From: Chloroflexota bacterium
GTDB taxonomy: Bacteria > Chloroflexota > Chloroflexia > Thermomicrobiales > CFX8
NCBI GenBank assembly: GCA_003577355.1
Contig: QEUZ01000002.1
Coordinates: 1 to 34,793, forward strand
Direction: 5' to 3'
Length of the DNA: 34,793 nt
The notes beneath the pieces are model-generated. The model saw only the letters and a list, made by a program, of their open reading frames with translations. It had not been told where the DNA came from and did not search any database. Within the stretch, counting starts at the first letter, position 1. Every line of letters starts with the position of its first letter. The translations under genes were made by a program, and so were the position numbers. Shown piece after piece: positions 438 through 33,172 of the stretch.

Positions 438-475
438 CACTCCTCCTGGCGTTCAGAGTGTCCGTACGCCACACA

Positions 476-6473: not shown

Positions 6474-6568
6474 GCTCGCAACCCCTCTTGTCTCACGGTT
6501 CAGTTACACTACCGTATGAACGTACACTGTCTTGTTGCAACGCTTCGACCTTGTGCCGATGAACATGA

Positions 6569-26246: not shown

Positions 26247-26582
26247 TCAGGAGACGATGCGCTCGAACCGGCTAACGTTACAAATAAACACCGCCGCACC
26301 TCCGACCTGCACTTCAACCGGGTTAGGCATGTAGAACTCACCCGGTTCCATGATCGGCAGCAACGGATTCACGTACTGCGTCCGCGTGTAGCACGTCTGC
26401 TTGATGATCCGCAGCACATCGGCCGTCTGGTCATCCTCAACGCCAACGAGGAATGTGGCGTTGCTCTCGCGCAGGAACCCTCCGGAGCTGTTGATCTGCG
26501 TCGTACGGTAGCCATGCGTCATGAGTGCAGAGCGCAGACTATCTGCGTCCTTCCCCTGGACAACGGCGAAGATCAACTTCAT
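26247..26582 (-). CDS. darA: DarA/PstA-type cyclic-di-AMP receptor (PII-like)
   Basis: A 111-residue PII-like protein. '[20 protein letters not shown]' and then 'INSSGGFLRESNATFLVGVE' are the family signature, with the expected nucleotide-contacting loop; 'ADVLRIIKQTC' follows. It ends 'GGAAVFICNVSRFERI', a typical C-terminal strand. Such proteins form trimers that bind c-di-AMP; the downstream targets are largely unknown. The ATG overlaps the tmk stop (ATGA). The tmk-darA order is also found in Firmicutes such as Bacillus subtilis (tmk-yaaQ), so this is a conserved pair. Neither the diadenylate cyclase nor a phosphodiesterase gene is in this window. Confidence 0.92.
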   Translation of the reverse strand: MKLIFAVVQGKDADSLRSALMTHGYRTTQINSSGGFLRESNATFLVGVEDDQTADVLRIIKQTCYTRTQYVNPLLPIMEPGEFYMPNPVEVQVGGAAVFICNVSRFERIVS

Positions 26583-27229
26583 CGTGCGAACCTCTCGAAG
26601 CTTGACTCGCTCGAGACAGCAAGGGCCTCGTGTACGTACTCAACCACGAGAGTATGCACCACGTCGATAGGCTGTGTCGCTTCGATAATCCTCCAGCGCA
26701 CCGGATCGTCACTGGCTGCTGCGCGAAACCAGGCGGCAACCCGTTCGTGGAATTGCGCTACTTCCCGGTCGATGCGGTTCACTCCCCCGTTGCGACCGCG
26801 ACGCTGTAGCCCAATCGCTGCCGGGACATCTAACAAGATCGTGAGGTCCGGCCAGATTCCTTGTACTGCGAGTTGTTGCAGTGCACGCAGGGCGTCTACG
26901 TCGAGTCCGCGACCTGCGCCTTGATACGCCAACGTTGAATCGACATAGCGATCGGACACCACGATGTCGCCGCGCTTCAGTGCAGGCTGGATCACGTCAG
27001 CAACATGTTGCGCGCGCGCGCCAGTCATCAGATACGCTTCGGCGGTCGCTGTAACGGAAACATGCGAGTCAAGCAGGAGAGTGCGCAGTTGCTCGCCCAA
27101 CGGTGTTCCACCTGGTTCACGAGTGACGACATGTGCGATGCATTGTCGCGTGAGCCATGCTGACAGGAGCGCCACCTGTGTGGACTTTCCTGATCCTTCA
27201 GCTCCTTCAAACGTGATCAGCACCGTCAC
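26579..27229 (-). CDS. tmk: Thymidylate kinase
   Basis: A 216-residue dTMP kinase. '[18 protein letters not shown]' is Walker A, '[18 protein letters not shown]' holds the DRX-type/EPGGT motif that contacts dTMP, '[19 protein letters not shown]' is the DRY motif, and '[12 protein letters not shown]' is the lid region. It makes dTDP for DNA synthesis. The start is GTG at 27229, overlapping the stop of the R3H-ATPase gene (GTGA), and its own stop overlaps darA (ATGA), so three genes are translationally coupled. All catalytic motifs are present and the length is normal. Confidence 0.95.
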
Positions 27230-28962
27230 TCCGCAGATGGGTCACGAAAGATCTCGACATGCCGGTAGGGTTCGCGACCTCGGCTACGTGACCCCAGGTT
27301 GTAGCGTTCCGCCAGCTGGTGTTGCAACCGCCGGATATACGGGGCCTGCGGACGCAGCTCCACCGGCGGTGCGCCAGACATTACCGCGTTGATTGCGTCT
27401 TCGACCTCGTACATTGCCATCGTCATCGCGTCGAGGTCGCTCGCATTTGGGGCTGCCTCAGGCTGTTCAGGAGCCATCTCAGCTTCTGGCCGCGCTTCAC
27501 GGATCAGGTCACGCAGGACATTCACCATTTGCACCACAGTGTTCGACCGCAGAACGAAGATGGACACTCCACGCGCTTCAGCATCGCGCAGTGGCTGCGG
27601 GCGCTGGCGATAGTAGTTCTTCAGTGTCAGCACCATGTCAGCCTCCGGCACGTCACGTACGATGATTGCCGGAAGCCCGACCATCCCAATTGCCTGTTCC
27701 AGGCGGTTACGACTCACGCCAAACGGGAAGATTCGCATCGGCCTGGTTTCGGTCCCCCGACCGCGCGTCAACGGGTTGCGCTGCGCGTTGCTTTCACCTT
27801 CCTCGTCGTGCTCGAACCGAGCGTCTTCCGCCTCAGCTCGACGCGGCTGGCGGATGCCTGCTTCGGCACGCTCGCGCAAACCGTTTGTCTGGCGATCGAT
27901 CCGAGCTTCGGTGACGACGACCGCGCCGTCCGCGGTGCGCTCGCGGATTTCCGGCCGAGGAGTCTGGCCCCGCAAGAGCGCGTCGACCGCCGCCGCGACA
28001 TCCAATACGATCGCGACCCGGTCGCGCTCCTGTATCTCGACCATGACGGTGAACGTCGGCGGCGCTTTGCGCTCGAGGATGGATTTCTGCGTCCCGCGCC
28101 GGCGGGCCTCTTCATCGCTGAGCGTCACCGACTGGATGCCGCCGATCAGGTCAGAAAGGGTTGGGTTCATCATCAGGTTTTCGAGGGTATTGCCGTGGGC
28201 GGTGCCAATGAGCTGCACACCGCGTTCAGCAATCGTCCGCGCCGCTGCCGCCTCGAGCTCCGTCCCGATTTCGTCGATGACAATGACTTCTGGGGTATGG
28301 TTCTCCACCGCTTCAATCATTACCGCGTGTTGCAGTGATGGCGTAGGGACCTGCATGCGGCGCGCACGACCGATTGAGGGATGAGGAATATCTCCATCCC
28401 CGGCGATTTCGTTGCTGGTGTCGACGACGATCACCCGTCGCGACAGATCATCCGCAAGGACTCGCGCGACCTCCCGCAGCATCGTTGTCTTGCCGACGCC
28501 AGGACGCCCAAGCAACAAAATGCTCTCGCCCGACTCGACGAGGTCACTGATGATCCCGATCGTGCCGTAGACTGAGCGACCTACCCGGCACGTCAGCCCG
28601 ACAATCTCCCCGGTGCGGTTGCGAATTGCCGAGATCCGATGCAATGTTCGTTCGATCCCAGCGCGATTGTCGTCTCCGAAGCGGCCGATGCGTTCGGCGA
28701 CCGAAGCGAGGTCGGCACGCGTAACTTCCCGGTCGCTCAGCAGTTCAGCGCCGCGCGGGAAACGCGCTTCCGGGCGGCGGCCGAGGTCCATAATCACTTC
28801 AATCAGGTCGGAATCGTCACGGTGCGACGAGGCCCGGATAATCGCTTCCTCAACCCAGTCCGGGAGGACGTGCAGCAAGTCATCGAGGTTGTCGGTGATC
28901 GCTATCTCATGAACGCCAGTCTGGATCAGTGAACGACGTGTGTGCTGCATCTCAGTGTTCAA
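27226..28962 (-). CDS. SpoIIIAA/Ycf45-like AAA ATPase with C-terminal R3H domain
   Basis: A 578-residue protein. The ATPase domain has Walker A '[20 protein letters not shown]' (about 152-160) and Walker B 'EVIVIDEIG' (226-232), with '[16 protein letters not shown]' following, as in Ycf45 and SpoIIIAA-like proteins. The middle region (about 360-400) is charged and probably disordered. The last 38 residues form an R3H domain ('[20 protein letters not shown]' and 'EPYRHVEI'), which binds single-stranded nucleic acid. The start is TTG at 28962, overlapping the upstream stop as TTGA; an ATG at 28950 is an alternative. The order between recR and tmk suggests a nucleic-acid role, but the biochemistry is unknown. 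Confidence 0.88.
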
Positions 28963-30128
28963 GACGCTTGTTGCTCCGATCGTTGAGCAGATGGTCTTCG
29001 AACCGACCCCGACGTGCCAACAGTGCGTAGCCCTCTCACCGATGTGGCATTGCGAAACAATGAAACCTTGTTACGCGCGCCAGATTGTGCCCGGATACTA
29101 AATGTCGGCGCCCCGCGCACAGCCCGCTCGGCAGCCTCAACCGCTGGAAGCGGGGAGAGACGCATTTGCACTGCCGGCGCCGTCGTGTGGCGGACCATCG
29201 CGATGCGCTCGTCTCGTAATGAAAAGCCGACCCGTTCAAGCGCTCCTACACACTCGGACTGATAACTCGGGATGTCAACTCGCACGATGGTCCCGCTGCT
29301 GACATGCGCTGTGTTGAGTGCCTCGAGGACAAACAGTCCTGCATCCACGCCGCTGACCGGATCTACGATGAGTTCGAGCCGGCAGGTTCGATCTTCTCGC
29401 CAGATCCTGCAATACGCATCGATCCCATGCTGCGAGTCGTACACGACGGCGAATTCTGCCGCACGCCCAACTGGTATGCGTCGCCGGCTGCGCGTGCCAG
29501 GGCATTCCCAATAGGAACTAGCCAGCGCTTCCGCAAACTGCACAGGACGTGGCGTCACTCGATGATAGAGATGATGGATTGACCAGACATCGCTCGGCTC
29601 CTGCTCGCGGACACCCCTCTGTGTTTCAATGGCTCCGGCGTTGTGACGTGTAGCAAGCGTCATGTGCGTCGTATAGCCTTCGAACCCGACGCGCAACAGA
29701 CTCTGATGCTCCGGTGTACCCTCACTGCAACCGGCAAATACACGCTTCGCGCCGTCTTCGCCAGCTCGCGCAATGGTGAACTCGAGCAAGCTCGTCCACA
29801 GTTCCTGTGCCTCGTCGTCGTGCGCTGCCAACTGTCGCGCGCCAGCGGCTAGCGCTAGAACGCGCCAGGCGAACCTCCCAGGATCGGGACGCGCGACGAG
29901 GTACGCGCACAGGACGTTATCAACAAGCGCGACATAGAGACGCACGCGCCGTCCGTCGCCGGGCGCCAACGCCGCCAGCGCGGACCGCACCGCACTGCAA
30001 TCGCCAAGACCACTGGAGCCTGGAGCGACATCAACCGTCACCCGCCGTGCGCGGCCGAGAGCGGGAAGATCGCGAACTATCGCTTGGCGAACGAGGAGCC
30101 GTGCCACGCCACTCCTTCTCGGCGGCAT
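28959..30128 (-). CDS. Tandem GNAT-like protein of unknown substrate
   Basis: A 389-residue protein, five bases after recR and overlapping the R3H-ATPase start (TTGA). Two GNAT-like halves can be suggested: residues about 10-165 ('[19 protein letters not shown]' ends the first) and about 185-320 ('[20 protein letters not shown]' and '[12 protein letters not shown]' end the second). Acetyl-CoA loops of the RxxGxG/A type are not clearly kept, so catalysis is doubtful. The last ~65 residues are basic and low complexity ('[20 protein letters not shown]'). No named family is recognised. Coupled translation with neighbours suggests a role in the same cluster. Confidence 0.68.
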
Positions 30129-30133
30129 ACGCC

Positions 30134-30742
30134 TTACAAAGCACGACGCCCAACGAGCGCGCGCCCCAACGTGATTTCGTCCGCGTATTCGAGATCGCCG
30201 CCTACAGGCAAGCCACTGGCCGGTCGGCTCGTTGTGATTCCTCGCGGTATCAACTGACGCGCGATGTACATCGCCGTAGCGTCTCCCTCGATATTCGGGT
30301 TTGTCGCGAGAATGACTTCCTGCGGTCGTTCTCGCTCGACGCGCTCGAGCAGTTCGCGGATCCGTAACTTGTCTGGCCCAATCCCATCGACCGGCGAGAT
30401 GGCCCCGTGCAAGACGTGATATAGCCCGCGATACTCGCCCGTTCGTTCGAGTGCTAAAGCATCTAGTGGTTCCTCAACGACACAAATGATCGAACGGTCG
30501 CGTGTCGGGTCGAGACACAATGCGCACGGGTCTGTTTCCGTGATGTTGAAGCACGTAGAGCAGAGAAACACACGCTCTTTGAGTTCCAGGATCGCTTCGG
30601 CAAGCGCCAATGCTTGCTCGCGTGAGGCACGCAGCAAGTAATAGGTCAGGCGTGAAGCTGATTTGGGTCCGATTCCCGGTAGCCGGCCAAGTTCGTCAAC
30701 CAGCCGGGAAACGGGTTCCGCGGTGAGTTTCGATGGACGCAA
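30134..30742 (-). CDS. recR: Recombination mediator protein RecR
   Basis: A 202-residue RecR. '[20 protein letters not shown]' is the helix-hairpin-helix DNA contact, '[16 protein letters not shown]' is the Cys4 zinc finger, and '[20 protein letters not shown]' begins the Toprim domain. '[19 protein letters not shown]' and '[20 protein letters not shown]' complete it. It joins RecO (23598-24398) in loading RecA. The start is TTG at 30742 with GGAG seven bases upstream. ftsK ends 65 bases upstream, so the two genes are probably co-transcribed. dnaX, its usual neighbour, is absent. Confidence 0.96.
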
Positions 30743-30807: not shown

Positions 30808-33111
30808 CTAATCATCCCAGTCGTCGCGCGCGAGGAGTGTTCTGCCACGCGGACCATCCGCTGGCCCAATGAACCCTTCGGCTTCCATGGTCTCAATCAA
30901 CCGCGCGGCACGGTTGTAGCCGATTCGCAGCCGCCGCTGGAGCATCGACGCAGACGCGGTCCCCTGTTGCTTGACAATCTCTAACGCCTGCTCCAGCAGC
31001 GGATCATCGTCGGTTTCGTCCCCCGCGTCGCTTGATGGCAGATCGGCCCATTCAGCTTCGTACCGCACTTCCGGCGCCTGCAAGCGCCAGTGCTTCACGA
31101 GCTTGCCCAGGTCCTGATCGTCGATGTACGAGCCTTGGATGCGATGCGGCTTGGCCGCATCCGCGGGCATGAACAACATGTCGCCACGCCCGAGCAGGCG
31201 CTCTGCCCCCGGCATATCGAGAATGACGCGACTGTCGACCTGCGATGTGACCGCGAACGCAATGCGCGCGGGAACATTCGCTTTGATCAGCCCTGTCAGA
31301 ACATCAACAGAAGGCCGCTGCGTCGCGATCAGCAGATGGATTCCGGTCGCACGCGCCATTTGCGCGAGTCGTACGAGGATCGTTTCCACCTCGTCGGGTG
31401 TCGTCATCATCAGGTCGGCCAGCTCGTCGATGATGACGACTAGGTAGGGCATCTTCTCCAGTCCCGGCTCCGTCGAGCGACGCAGTTCATATCCGTCGAT
31501 ATTGCGAACACCGAGCCGGGAAAAGAGCTGGTAGCGTCGTTCCATCTCGCGCAGGACCATGCGCAGCGCTGCAACCACCTTGTCCATTTCGGTGACGACC
31601 GGCGCTTTGAGATGCGGGACCCCTTCATACCCAGCGAGCTCAACCATCTTGGGGTCGATCATAACCATCTTCAGCTCATCTGGGGTCCGAGTCAACAGGA
31701 ACGTTGCGATGATCCCGTTGATACACACGCTCTTACCGGAGCCAGTTGAGCCCGCGATCAGCAGGTGAGGCATCTTGGTCAGGTCGCCGATGATGAACCG
31801 ACCGTTGACGTCCCTTCCTAACGACAGCGGCAACTTCGCACTCGACTTGACGAATGCGGCGGATTCCAGCGTCTCGCGTAGCCCTACTGTCGATATGCTG
31901 CCATTGGGGATCTCGATTCCGACGCGCGCCATACCGGGAACTGGCGCTTCGATCCGGATTTGGGTCGCCGCCAGCGCGAGGGCCAGGTCGTTCTGGAGCT
32001 CAGTAATGCGGCGAACTTTGACGCCAGCCCCCGGTTCGAGCGTGAACAGTGTCACCGCTGGGCCGGGAAACACCTCACGCACTTTTGCTTCGACTTTGAA
32101 CGAGCGCAAAGACTCTTCAATGCGTCTCGCCTTCTCTTCCAGCTCCTTTCCGTTAGGCGCGCTGCTTTCATACAGGCTGAGTGCGTCGATCGATGGGAGC
32201 TTCCAACCACCCTTACGGACATCATCTGGCTTGCGTCCACCAGTGCCACTTTCCCAGGTTGAAACCGCCCGCCGGACATCGTTCACACCCGCCTCAGCAG
32301 TGACTGTGGCGATGACGGGTCGTGCACTTACTGCTGGCGGGTTGTGCTGCGCGCCCGACTCAGAGATGGTGGGAGCGGGGGGAAGCACATCGGTAATTGG
32401 AGTAATCGCATGCTGTTGACCTCCAGACTCCCCTCCCTCCTCTGCAACGACTGAAAATGCCTGGTCCTCCTGAAGTAGCTCGTGTGCGTACTGCCTGCGC
32501 GCACGGATCCGACGCCACGCTGCGACATACTCCCGTGAATCGCTCCCGCTGACCAACCACACACCGACGGTTCCGAGCGCCAAAAAGAGCAGCCCAGCCC
32601 CGACTTCACCCACAAGCGACTGCAGGAACAAGCTCGAGCCGTAGCCAACGTATCCGCCGGCGTCCCGAACCTCACGCTCCGGGTAAGTCTGGGCAAGCAG
32701 CCCAACACAGGCCGCCACGAGGACGATGCCGCCCAGCACCCGGCGGCTGCGGTGTCCTGCATCGCCCGATCGCCAAATCTCCACTGCGATAATCGAGAGT
32801 CCGAGTGGTACGGCGATCGCTCCAAGTCCGAGCAGTGCAGCGATACCGTCGCTCAGGTATTTCAACCCGCTACGCCCCGCGAGCCCAATGATCGGCAAGG
32901 TGGCAACAACCGCGAGCGTAAAGATCGCGAACGCCAGAATCTCCTCACGCAAGCGCTCGCTGACCTCGGCCCGGCCGACCCAGCCAGTGAAGCGCTTGAA
33001 CGCGCGTTTCCAGCGCGGCGGGCGAGTCGGCTCGAACAGCGCCGCTGGTCGAACCGCGACTCGCTCGGTGACCCGCTCAGTTTGCTTGCTTGTCTTCGCC
33101 CGAACCGCCAC
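30808..33111 (-). CDS. ftsK: FtsK/SpoIIIE family DNA translocase
   Basis: A 767-residue DNA pump. Four membrane segments lie near residues 57-79, 87-111, 124-142 and 166-189. A linker of about 110 residues leads to the alpha domain ('LQNDLALALAATQIRIEAPV'). The motor has Walker A 'LIAGSTGSGKSVCINGIIAT' (454-461) and Walker B 'YLVVIIDELADLMM' (557-564). The gamma winged helix ('ASMLQRRLRIGYNRAARLIE') recognises chromosome-orienting motifs. It helps segregate the chromosome terminus at the septum. The start is GTG at 33111 with GGGAG close upstream. A promoter and a long inverted repeat lie just upstream. Confidence 0.95.
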   Translation of the reverse strand: MAVRAKTSKQTERVTERVAVRPAALFEPTRPPRWKRAFKRFTGWVGRAEVSERLREEILAFAIFTLAVVATLPIIGLAGRSGLKYLSDGIAALLGLGAIAVPLGLSIIAVEIWRSGDAGHRSRRVLGGIVLVAACVGLLAQTYPEREVRDAGGYVGYGSSLFLQSLVGEVGAGLLFLALGTVGVWLVSGSDSREYVAAWRRIRARRQYAHELLQEDQAFSVVAEEGGESGGQQHAITPITDVLPPAPTISESGAQHNPPAVSARPVIATVTAEAGVNDVRRAVSTWESGTGGRKPDDVRKGGWKLPSIDALSLYESSAPNGKELEEKARRIEESLRSFKVEAKVREVFPGPAVTLFTLEPGAGVKVRRITELQNDLALALAATQIRIEAPVPGMARVGIEIPNGSISTVGLRETLESAAFVKSSAKLPLSLGRDVNGRFIIGDLTKMPHLLIAGSTGSGKSVCINGIIATFLLTRTPDELKMVMIDPKMVELAGYEGVPHLKAPVVTEMDKVVAALRMVLREMERRYQLFSRLGVRNIDGYELRRSTEPGLEKMPYLVVIIDELADLMMTTPDEVETILVRLAQMARATGIHLLIATQRPSVDVLTGLIKANVPARIAFAVTSQVDSRVILDMPGAERLLGRGDMLFMPADAAKPHRIQGSYIDDQDLGKLVKHWRLQAPEVRYEAEWADLPSSDAGDETDDDPLLEQALEIVKQQGTASASMLQRRLRIGYNRAARLIETMEAEGFIGPADGPRGRTLLARDDWDD

Positions 33112-33120
33112 AGTTGCTCC

Positions 33121-33157
33121 CAGTCGCCTAGCAGTGTACGTACACTCTACGCGACTG
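33121..33157. promoter_or_regulatory. 37-base near-perfect inverted repeat over the ftsK -10
   Basis: The left arm (CAGTCGCCTAGCAGTGTAC, 33121-33139) mirrors the right arm (33140-33157) with one substitution and one extra base. The central 14 bases, AGTGTACGTACACT (33133-33146), are a perfect palindrome overlapping the -10. It could be an operator or an RNA hairpin near the ftsK start; with no loop, a protein-binding site seems more likely. Confidence 0.72.
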
Positions 33158-33172
33158 GCGAAAACTGGTCAA
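33144..33172 (-). promoter_or_regulatory. Predicted ftsK promoter
   Basis: On the minus strand TTGACC (33172-33167) and TAGAGT (33149-33144) are separated by 17 bases, a good sigma-70-type match. Transcription would begin near 33137, about 26 bases before the GTG start at 33111. Confidence 0.68.

Follow-up and report, generated by a model that had tools for sequence, protein, structure and literature searches.

A palindromic operator-like site before ftsK that looks like one member of an order-wide cell-duplication regulon in Thermomicrobiales

The 14-base core of the inverted repeat before ftsK looks, on comparison of genomes, like one member of a cell-duplication regulon that spans the order Thermomicrobiales. 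This core is probably the operator of a dimeric DNA-binding regulator of the order, most likely a repressor. The site, its conservation, its shared targets, and its placement on promoters were observed directly in the DNA. The window, i.e., the whole stretch of 34,793 nucleotides that was analyzed, is one contig of a 4.43-Mb draft genome (G000), and its features are summarized in Table 1.

Table 1. Coordinates of the features in the window. Bit scores were obtained using a matrix that includes two ftsK sites.
Feature	Position	Strand	Remarks
Putative operator core AGTGTACGTACACT	33133..33146		Perfect 14-base palindrome
Whole imperfect dyad	33120..33158		39 nt; one mismatch and a one-base bulge (C33132)
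ftsK -10, TAGAGT	33144..33149	-	Overlapped by the core
ftsK -35, TTGACC	33167..33172	-	17-base spacer; 17–18 in four family relatives
ftsK	30808..33111	-	4TM, alpha, translocase, and gamma domains
recR	30134..30742	-	Next gene, probable operon
ORF without Pfam match	28959..30128	-	Probable operon
SpoIIIAA-like ATPase with R3H domain	27226..28962	-	Probable operon
tmk, thymidylate kinase	26579..27229	-	Probable operon
Cyclic-di-AMP receptor (CdAMP_rec)	26247..26582	-	Probable operon
Second operator-like site TATGAACGTACACT	6515..6528		17.2 bits
Possible third site AGTGTCCGTACGCC	457..470		15.1 bits; immediately upstream of a GAF/HisKA_2 histidine kinase ORF (477, +)
Match inside tmk	26629..26642		13.7 bits; best among 15 shuffled windows, 13.3

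The site before ftsK and its conservation

The sequence-only reading had described an inverted repeat with a perfect 14-base core that overlaps the -10 element of ftsK and the start of its transcript. Both the core and the dyad are present, and the overlap was borne out: the core shares 3 bases with the -10 element, and the expected start site falls inside it. The promoter (TTGACC-N17-TAGAGT) is of the sigma70 type and lies on the minus strand, and the start codon of ftsK is a GTG at 33111 (gene starts are our own ORF calls, not annotations). The outer arms of the dyad, CCAGTCGC (33120–33127) and GCGACTGG (33151–33158), pair with each other one base out of register with respect to the core. 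The -35 (TTGACY) and -10 (TARAGT) elements keep their position relative to the ftsK core in four other genomes of the family. The long dyad noted earlier is not what relatives have in common: the 14-base core is kept in them and the outer arms are not conserved.

The length of the palindrome alone is unremarkable: the window contains three perfect palindromes of 14 bases, and of 60 first-order Markov shuffles, 59 gave one of at least this length. Palindrome length was rejected as evidence because equal or longer palindromes arise in shuffles. The window contains 4 matches to the core within 3 mismatches vs. a shuffle mean of 0.58, and none of 100 shuffles reached 4.

A 900-base region that includes the expected start of ftsK was scanned using a weight matrix built from 46 non-ftsK sites. 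A score of at least 8 bits was obtained at 39 of the 41 scorable loci of the order vs. 1 of 45 loci from other taxa, and at 34 of 36 order loci when five duplicate records were left out. The scores of the order and of the other taxa differed with a Mann-Whitney p value of 1e-15 (41 vs. 45), in which related genomes are not independent observations. The close FtsK relatives were labelled Thermomicrobiaceae, Sphaerobacteraceae, and Thermomicrobiales, and a few just Chloroflexi, Chloroflexia, or bacterium; L075, L077, L078, L081, and L137 were assigned to the order by FtsK similarity rather than by label. Three of 44 order loci (L043, L053, and L078) and 6 of 51 others had too little upstream DNA to be scored, and L043 has a two-mismatch site. 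The order loci under 8 bits, L056 and L058 (6.4 bits, one genus), carry the variant TGCGAACGGACGCA, which overlaps a second variant in L056. Loss of the repeat upstream of ftsK and random placement, named beforehand as evidence against an operator, were looked for, and the site was found conserved order-wide and located at promoters.

The ftsK site is often doubled in other families of the order (several loci among L044–L067), with two palindromes 13 bases apart, and the doubled sites lie directly 3′ of a TATAC-type -10 element. The lone ftsK match outside the order among the 45 scored loci is L092 (10.1 bits), on an Anaerolineae contig.

Downstream of the site, the genes for FtsK, RecR, the ORF product, the SpoIIIAA-like/R3H ATPase, Tmk, CdAMP_rec, and a zinc-ribbon protein follow in this order on the same strand with close spacing. 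Because recR and the next genes closely follow ftsK on the same strand, it is plausible from the gene order that the single site could govern them if they are co-transcribed with ftsK. Elsewhere in the window, the second operator-like site sits between divergent genes for a FAD-oxidase (start 6473, minus strand) and an EVE-domain protein (6569, plus strand), and in G004, where the two homologs (79% and 73% identical) are likewise paired, AGTGAACGTACACT lies in between. The match inside tmk is probably incidental.

Recurrence of the site and the genes that carry it

A genome search for further copies at promoters had been proposed with the sequence-only reading, and copies recur at the promoters of replication and division genes. 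The G000 genome contains 4 exact and 10 one-mismatch copies of AGTGTACGTACACT. Two of the exact copies are 21 bases apart upstream of ftsA, and tandem copies of the site also occur 13 or 21 bases apart. With up to 3 mismatches the G000 count was 85 vs. 78 for the control, i.e., no excess, and weak matches therefore prove nothing. The degenerate word GTGTMCGKACAC was found 17 times in G000 vs. 0 for the reversed control, and 10, 11, 10, 10, and 5 times in five further Thermomicrobiales genomes vs. control counts of 0, 0, 0, 0, and 1. The counts of 10–11 belong to four genomes of another family and the count of 5 vs. 1 to a third family. Elsewhere in the phylum (245 genomes) the word was at background, with 66 copies in total (at most 3 per genome) vs. 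89 for the control (our own sums). Moreover, WGTGTACGTACACW within 2 mismatches was counted 41 vs. 8 times in G004, which belongs to another genus of the same family as G000, and GYGTMCGKACRC 15 vs. 2 times in G005.

To describe the gene set, sites were read together with their neighbours in G000 (within two mismatches; 33 sites at 32 loci), G004 (35 of the 41 sites), G005, G009, G014, and G006. A flanking gene family was common to 17 of the 32 G000 site loci and 16 of the 35 G004 site loci, where shared families are defined by blast at 30% identity or more and are not proven orthologs, and where about one pair would be expected by chance according to a hand estimate. The other 15 G000 loci had no counterpart among the 35 G004 loci. 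One of these is a fragment of a xer-type recombinase gene that ends at a contig edge and was too short to count; with its G004 partner (L014 and L181) it forms a further pair outside the 17 of 32.

The following genes with a site were confirmed by Pfam: dnaA, dnaN, dnaE, polA, thyX, a dgt-type HD hydrolase gene, and dcd for replication and dNTP supply; ftsA, a phage-integrase-family recombinase gene, mreB, and a bactofilin gene for division, segregation, and shape; the genes for D,D-carboxypeptidase, PG-binding/VanW proteins, and a LysM-peptidase for the envelope; and uvrC, alaS, uvrA, udg, and the genes for 3-methyladenine glycosylase and ribosomal protein L9 for repair and other functions. 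The site was found at dnaA in G000, G004, G005, G009, and G014, at dnaN in G000, G004, and G009, and at thyX in G000, G004, and G005; it was seen in one genome only at polA and the methyladenine glycosylase gene (G000) and at mreB and udg (G004). As expected of a cell-cycle-type system, genes for replication, division, and the envelope share the same site in more than one genus. Control had earlier been proposed for ftsK and perhaps its cluster; the regulon is far larger, with sites at many replication and division genes. Strong sites also precede genes off this theme, named by eye, for a methyltransferase (an exact copy, C219) and for SRPBCC-, VOC-, and YciI-like proteins.

Several further arrangements were observed at the site loci. 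Two operator-like sites, one with 3 mismatches, lie 82 bases apart on contig C116 of G000 (L006:1501–1600) and precede a SRPBCC-like gene and an ArsR-like frame, both named by eye. Some of the G000 VOC-/YciI-type site loci are on contigs of higher third-position GC. In G000, G004, and G009 (L005, L166, and L174), dnaN and an uncharacterised gene of about 200–240 codons diverge from the site between them.

Placement on promoters and proposed mechanism

A -35/-10 score of at least 8 of 12 was obtained at 26 of 47 sites vs. 1–5 of 47 in eight windows offset from the sites (one set had 46 instead of 47), and 21 of the 47 sites had no promoter with a score of 8. Among the 26, the end of the -10 element ranges from 22 bases upstream to 1 base downstream of the site centre, where the search itself covered only 25 bases upstream to 5 bases downstream. 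The -10 element overlaps the core in 10 of the 26, in which core letters can aid the score, and lies wholly upstream of it in 16. Many sites thus lie on or just 3′ of a -10 element, the classic place of a repressor, and the site was therefore taken as a repressor operator. The operator reading is supported by the order-wide conservation at ftsK together with the recurrence at promoters, both of which are features of the compared genomes. Protein binding, repression, the identity of the protein, and the signal that it would answer to are what we infer from them.

The tie of the sites to promoters would also suit a promoter class in which the site is read directly by an alternative sigma factor. 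We consider this very improbable, as the -35/-10 boxes are ordinary and sigma70-like and stand at varying distances from the site, and as the element is palindromic and is also repeated in tandem at a distance of 13 or 21 bases.

We also considered a role in chromosome organisation or nucleoid occlusion (a site of the SlmA/Noc type) instead of a promoter operator. E. coli SlmA reads a 12-base palindrome, GTGAGTACTCAC, which has the same outline as the site: GTGA-N4-TCAC is the SlmA form, and GTGW-N4-WCAC the form found here, with a link to division in both. The site here is found at promoters that belong to a coherent group of genes, and it recurs at the same genes across genera. Furthermore, all 36 TetR hits were compared, and none has a full-length relative with at least 40% identity in every one of the six genomes; the matches obtained were weaker or confined to the HTH. 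G005 and G009 have three TetR hits each. There is, accordingly, little chance that the site is of the SlmA/Noc type. The word GTGAGTACTCAC occurs in PMC3116907.

Under the repressor-operator reading, a regulator seated on the -10/start region of ftsK would block RNA polymerase, and its departure would permit transcription of ftsK and the genes behind it. The same operator would act on replication through dnaA, dnaN, dnaE, and polA (the last in one genome), on dNTP supply through thyX, dgt, and dcd, and on segregation and division through ftsK, the xer-type recombinase gene, and ftsA. Shape and envelope would be reached through the genes for bactofilin, D,D-carboxypeptidase, PG-binding/VanW, and LysM proteins and through mreB (in one genome), and repair through uvrC, uvrA, and udg.

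Candidate readers of the site

The regulator families surveyed were LexA, WhiA, GntR, TetR, and HTH_17. The reader of the site may belong to the MarR, ArsR, or XRE families, or still to GntR or TetR, in which no close candidate common to the six genomes emerged other than a MocR type. A MarR-type gene next to a transporter gene is divergent from dnaA in G005, G009, and G014; none was seen next to dnaA in the loci of G000 and G004. A WhiA operator was rejected as a candidate on the criterion of whiA presence, with whiA found in 0 of 9 order genomes tested and in 1 of 5 others.

In regards to LexA, the likeness to an SOS regulon lies in repressor-type operators on promoters and in some shared repair genes (uvrA, uvrC, udg, and tag are among the targets); moreover, a GAACN4GTTC box occurs within 60 bases of the site at three site loci. 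The operator itself differs. The sole LexA above the family cut-offs, that of G000, has GAACAGATGTTC, a canonical GAACN4GTTC box, in its own promoter, and the core is absent within 4 mismatches from the 3.2-kb lexA locus. The LexA boxes and the site stand side by side as different elements. Since LexA has its own canonical box, the site is not the SOS operator, in agreement with the earlier remark that it does not look like the Firmicute or actinobacterial LexA box; we regard an SOS operator of the Thermomicrobiales lineage as extremely improbable. The Sphaerobacteraceae were not analysed in a 2012 SOS survey (PMC3323433), which was restricted by the lack of a defined motif and/or of more than one complete genome.

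Two promoters at which both elements occur were observed in the course of this comparison. The first precedes the gene for a 63-residue hydrophobic protein in two genera (L013:175–430 on contig C468 of G000, and L180:1480–1742 on contig C20 of G004), where a GAACN4GTTC LexA box and an operator-like site are side by side. The protein had no Pfam match (L180 tested). SidA and YneA are small membrane division inhibitors induced in the SOS response, and by analogy the 63-residue protein could be an SOS-induced inhibitor of this kind. The second is the 3-methyladenine glycosylase promoter (L027:2001–2040), with the operator-like AGTGTCCGTACACA and the LexA box GAACACATGTTC.

The GntR-type proteins are of interest through AraR, which has a GntR-type DNA-binding domain. 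In PMC5289569, the AraR operator of Bacillus/Geobacillus is given as ATTGTACGTACAA, the core of which, TGTACGTACA, is identical to the core of the site; the targets of the site, unlike those of AraR, are not arabinose genes. The GntR-type survey (47 hits in six genomes) found that only the MocR type has relatives with at least 40% identity in all six genomes (41–79% identity), and FadR-type proteins at 31–32% identity were present in all six. A check of 13 genes of the MocR and FadR types found no upstream site, the best score being 6.2 bits. The MocR-type gene adjoins pdxT/pdxS homologs in G005, G009, and G026, a neighbourhood that we take to be the one expected of a pyridoxal regulator.

The best single candidate is a BldC-like winged-helix protein of the HTH_17 survey, family A (P0007; contig C156 of G000), which would read the site and repress itself together with the regulon. 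In 16 of 16 orthologs the gene is preceded by the word within 3 mismatches, and 15 of 15 distinct orthologs scored 11.9–23.1 bits (no more than 1 of 100 shuffles as good) vs. 2 of 34 other HTH_17 genes with at least 10 bits, using a matrix that was trained without the family A gene and includes two ftsK sites. In 4 of 7 neighbourhoods (G018, G022, G016, and G040), the gene adjoins one of the ftsW/rodA type, where the ftsW/rodA identity was established by Pfam in L348 only and the other three were matched to L348 by blast, and mreB is near it in G016 and, by homology, in G040. The best fold match of the family A model is BldC (6ama), followed by RacA.

The mean pLDDT of the same model is 68, and Foldseek gave no match at E ≤0.001. 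A search for true family A orthologs found none in G005, G009, G012, or G014, near-complete genomes that all keep sites, and the gene is missing from the ftsW/rodA-pdxT neighbourhood that is kept in G026; the family A gene was seen without an ftsW/rodA neighbour in G034, G000, and G004. Of the features expected of a BldC-type reader, a MerR-like winged helix and a site at its own gene were found, and presence in every site-bearing genome was not. The likeness to BldC of Streptomyces thus concerns the predicted fold of a protein with the site at its own gene; family A does not span the order, and BldC, according to PMC5859096, binds direct repeats rather than palindromes. Family A as the sole or universal reader is disfavoured by its absence from genomes that keep sites, and we judge it unlikely that this protein reads the site and represses the regulon. 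The family A gene is probably a target of the regulator instead, and its product perhaps a co-regulator. Another HTH_17 family (STEQVRRYLREG), of family f3, is preceded by an operator-like site in 2 genomes only (L240 and L248).

The Caulobacter cell-cycle motifs are TTAA-N7-TTAA or GANTC, and the site here is a palindromic 14-mer in a different phylum. The resemblance to the CtrA/GcrA/DnaA system is that one transcription-factor circuit ties replication, division, and envelope genes together (cf. PMC4287350). Nothing in print on such a Chloroflexota site was found among the matches listed in the open-licence literature.

Tentatively, and with a little less than an even chance in our estimation, the Thermomicrobiales may possess an undescribed master regulator of cell duplication, in which one LexA-independent repressor and one palindromic operator would couple replication initiation, the replisome, dNTP pools, segregation, division, and envelope growth, and a BldC-like accessory regulator would close a feedback loop within part of the order. 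To our knowledge, few bacterial lineages are known in which the genes for replication initiation, the replisome, nucleotide supply, division, and the envelope share a single operator. If true, this would be an order-wide case in Chloroflexota of one operator over the genes of cell duplication. The 14-base core provides a defined bait for capture of the regulator, and the coordination of growth and division in Thermomicrobiales would thereby become directly testable.
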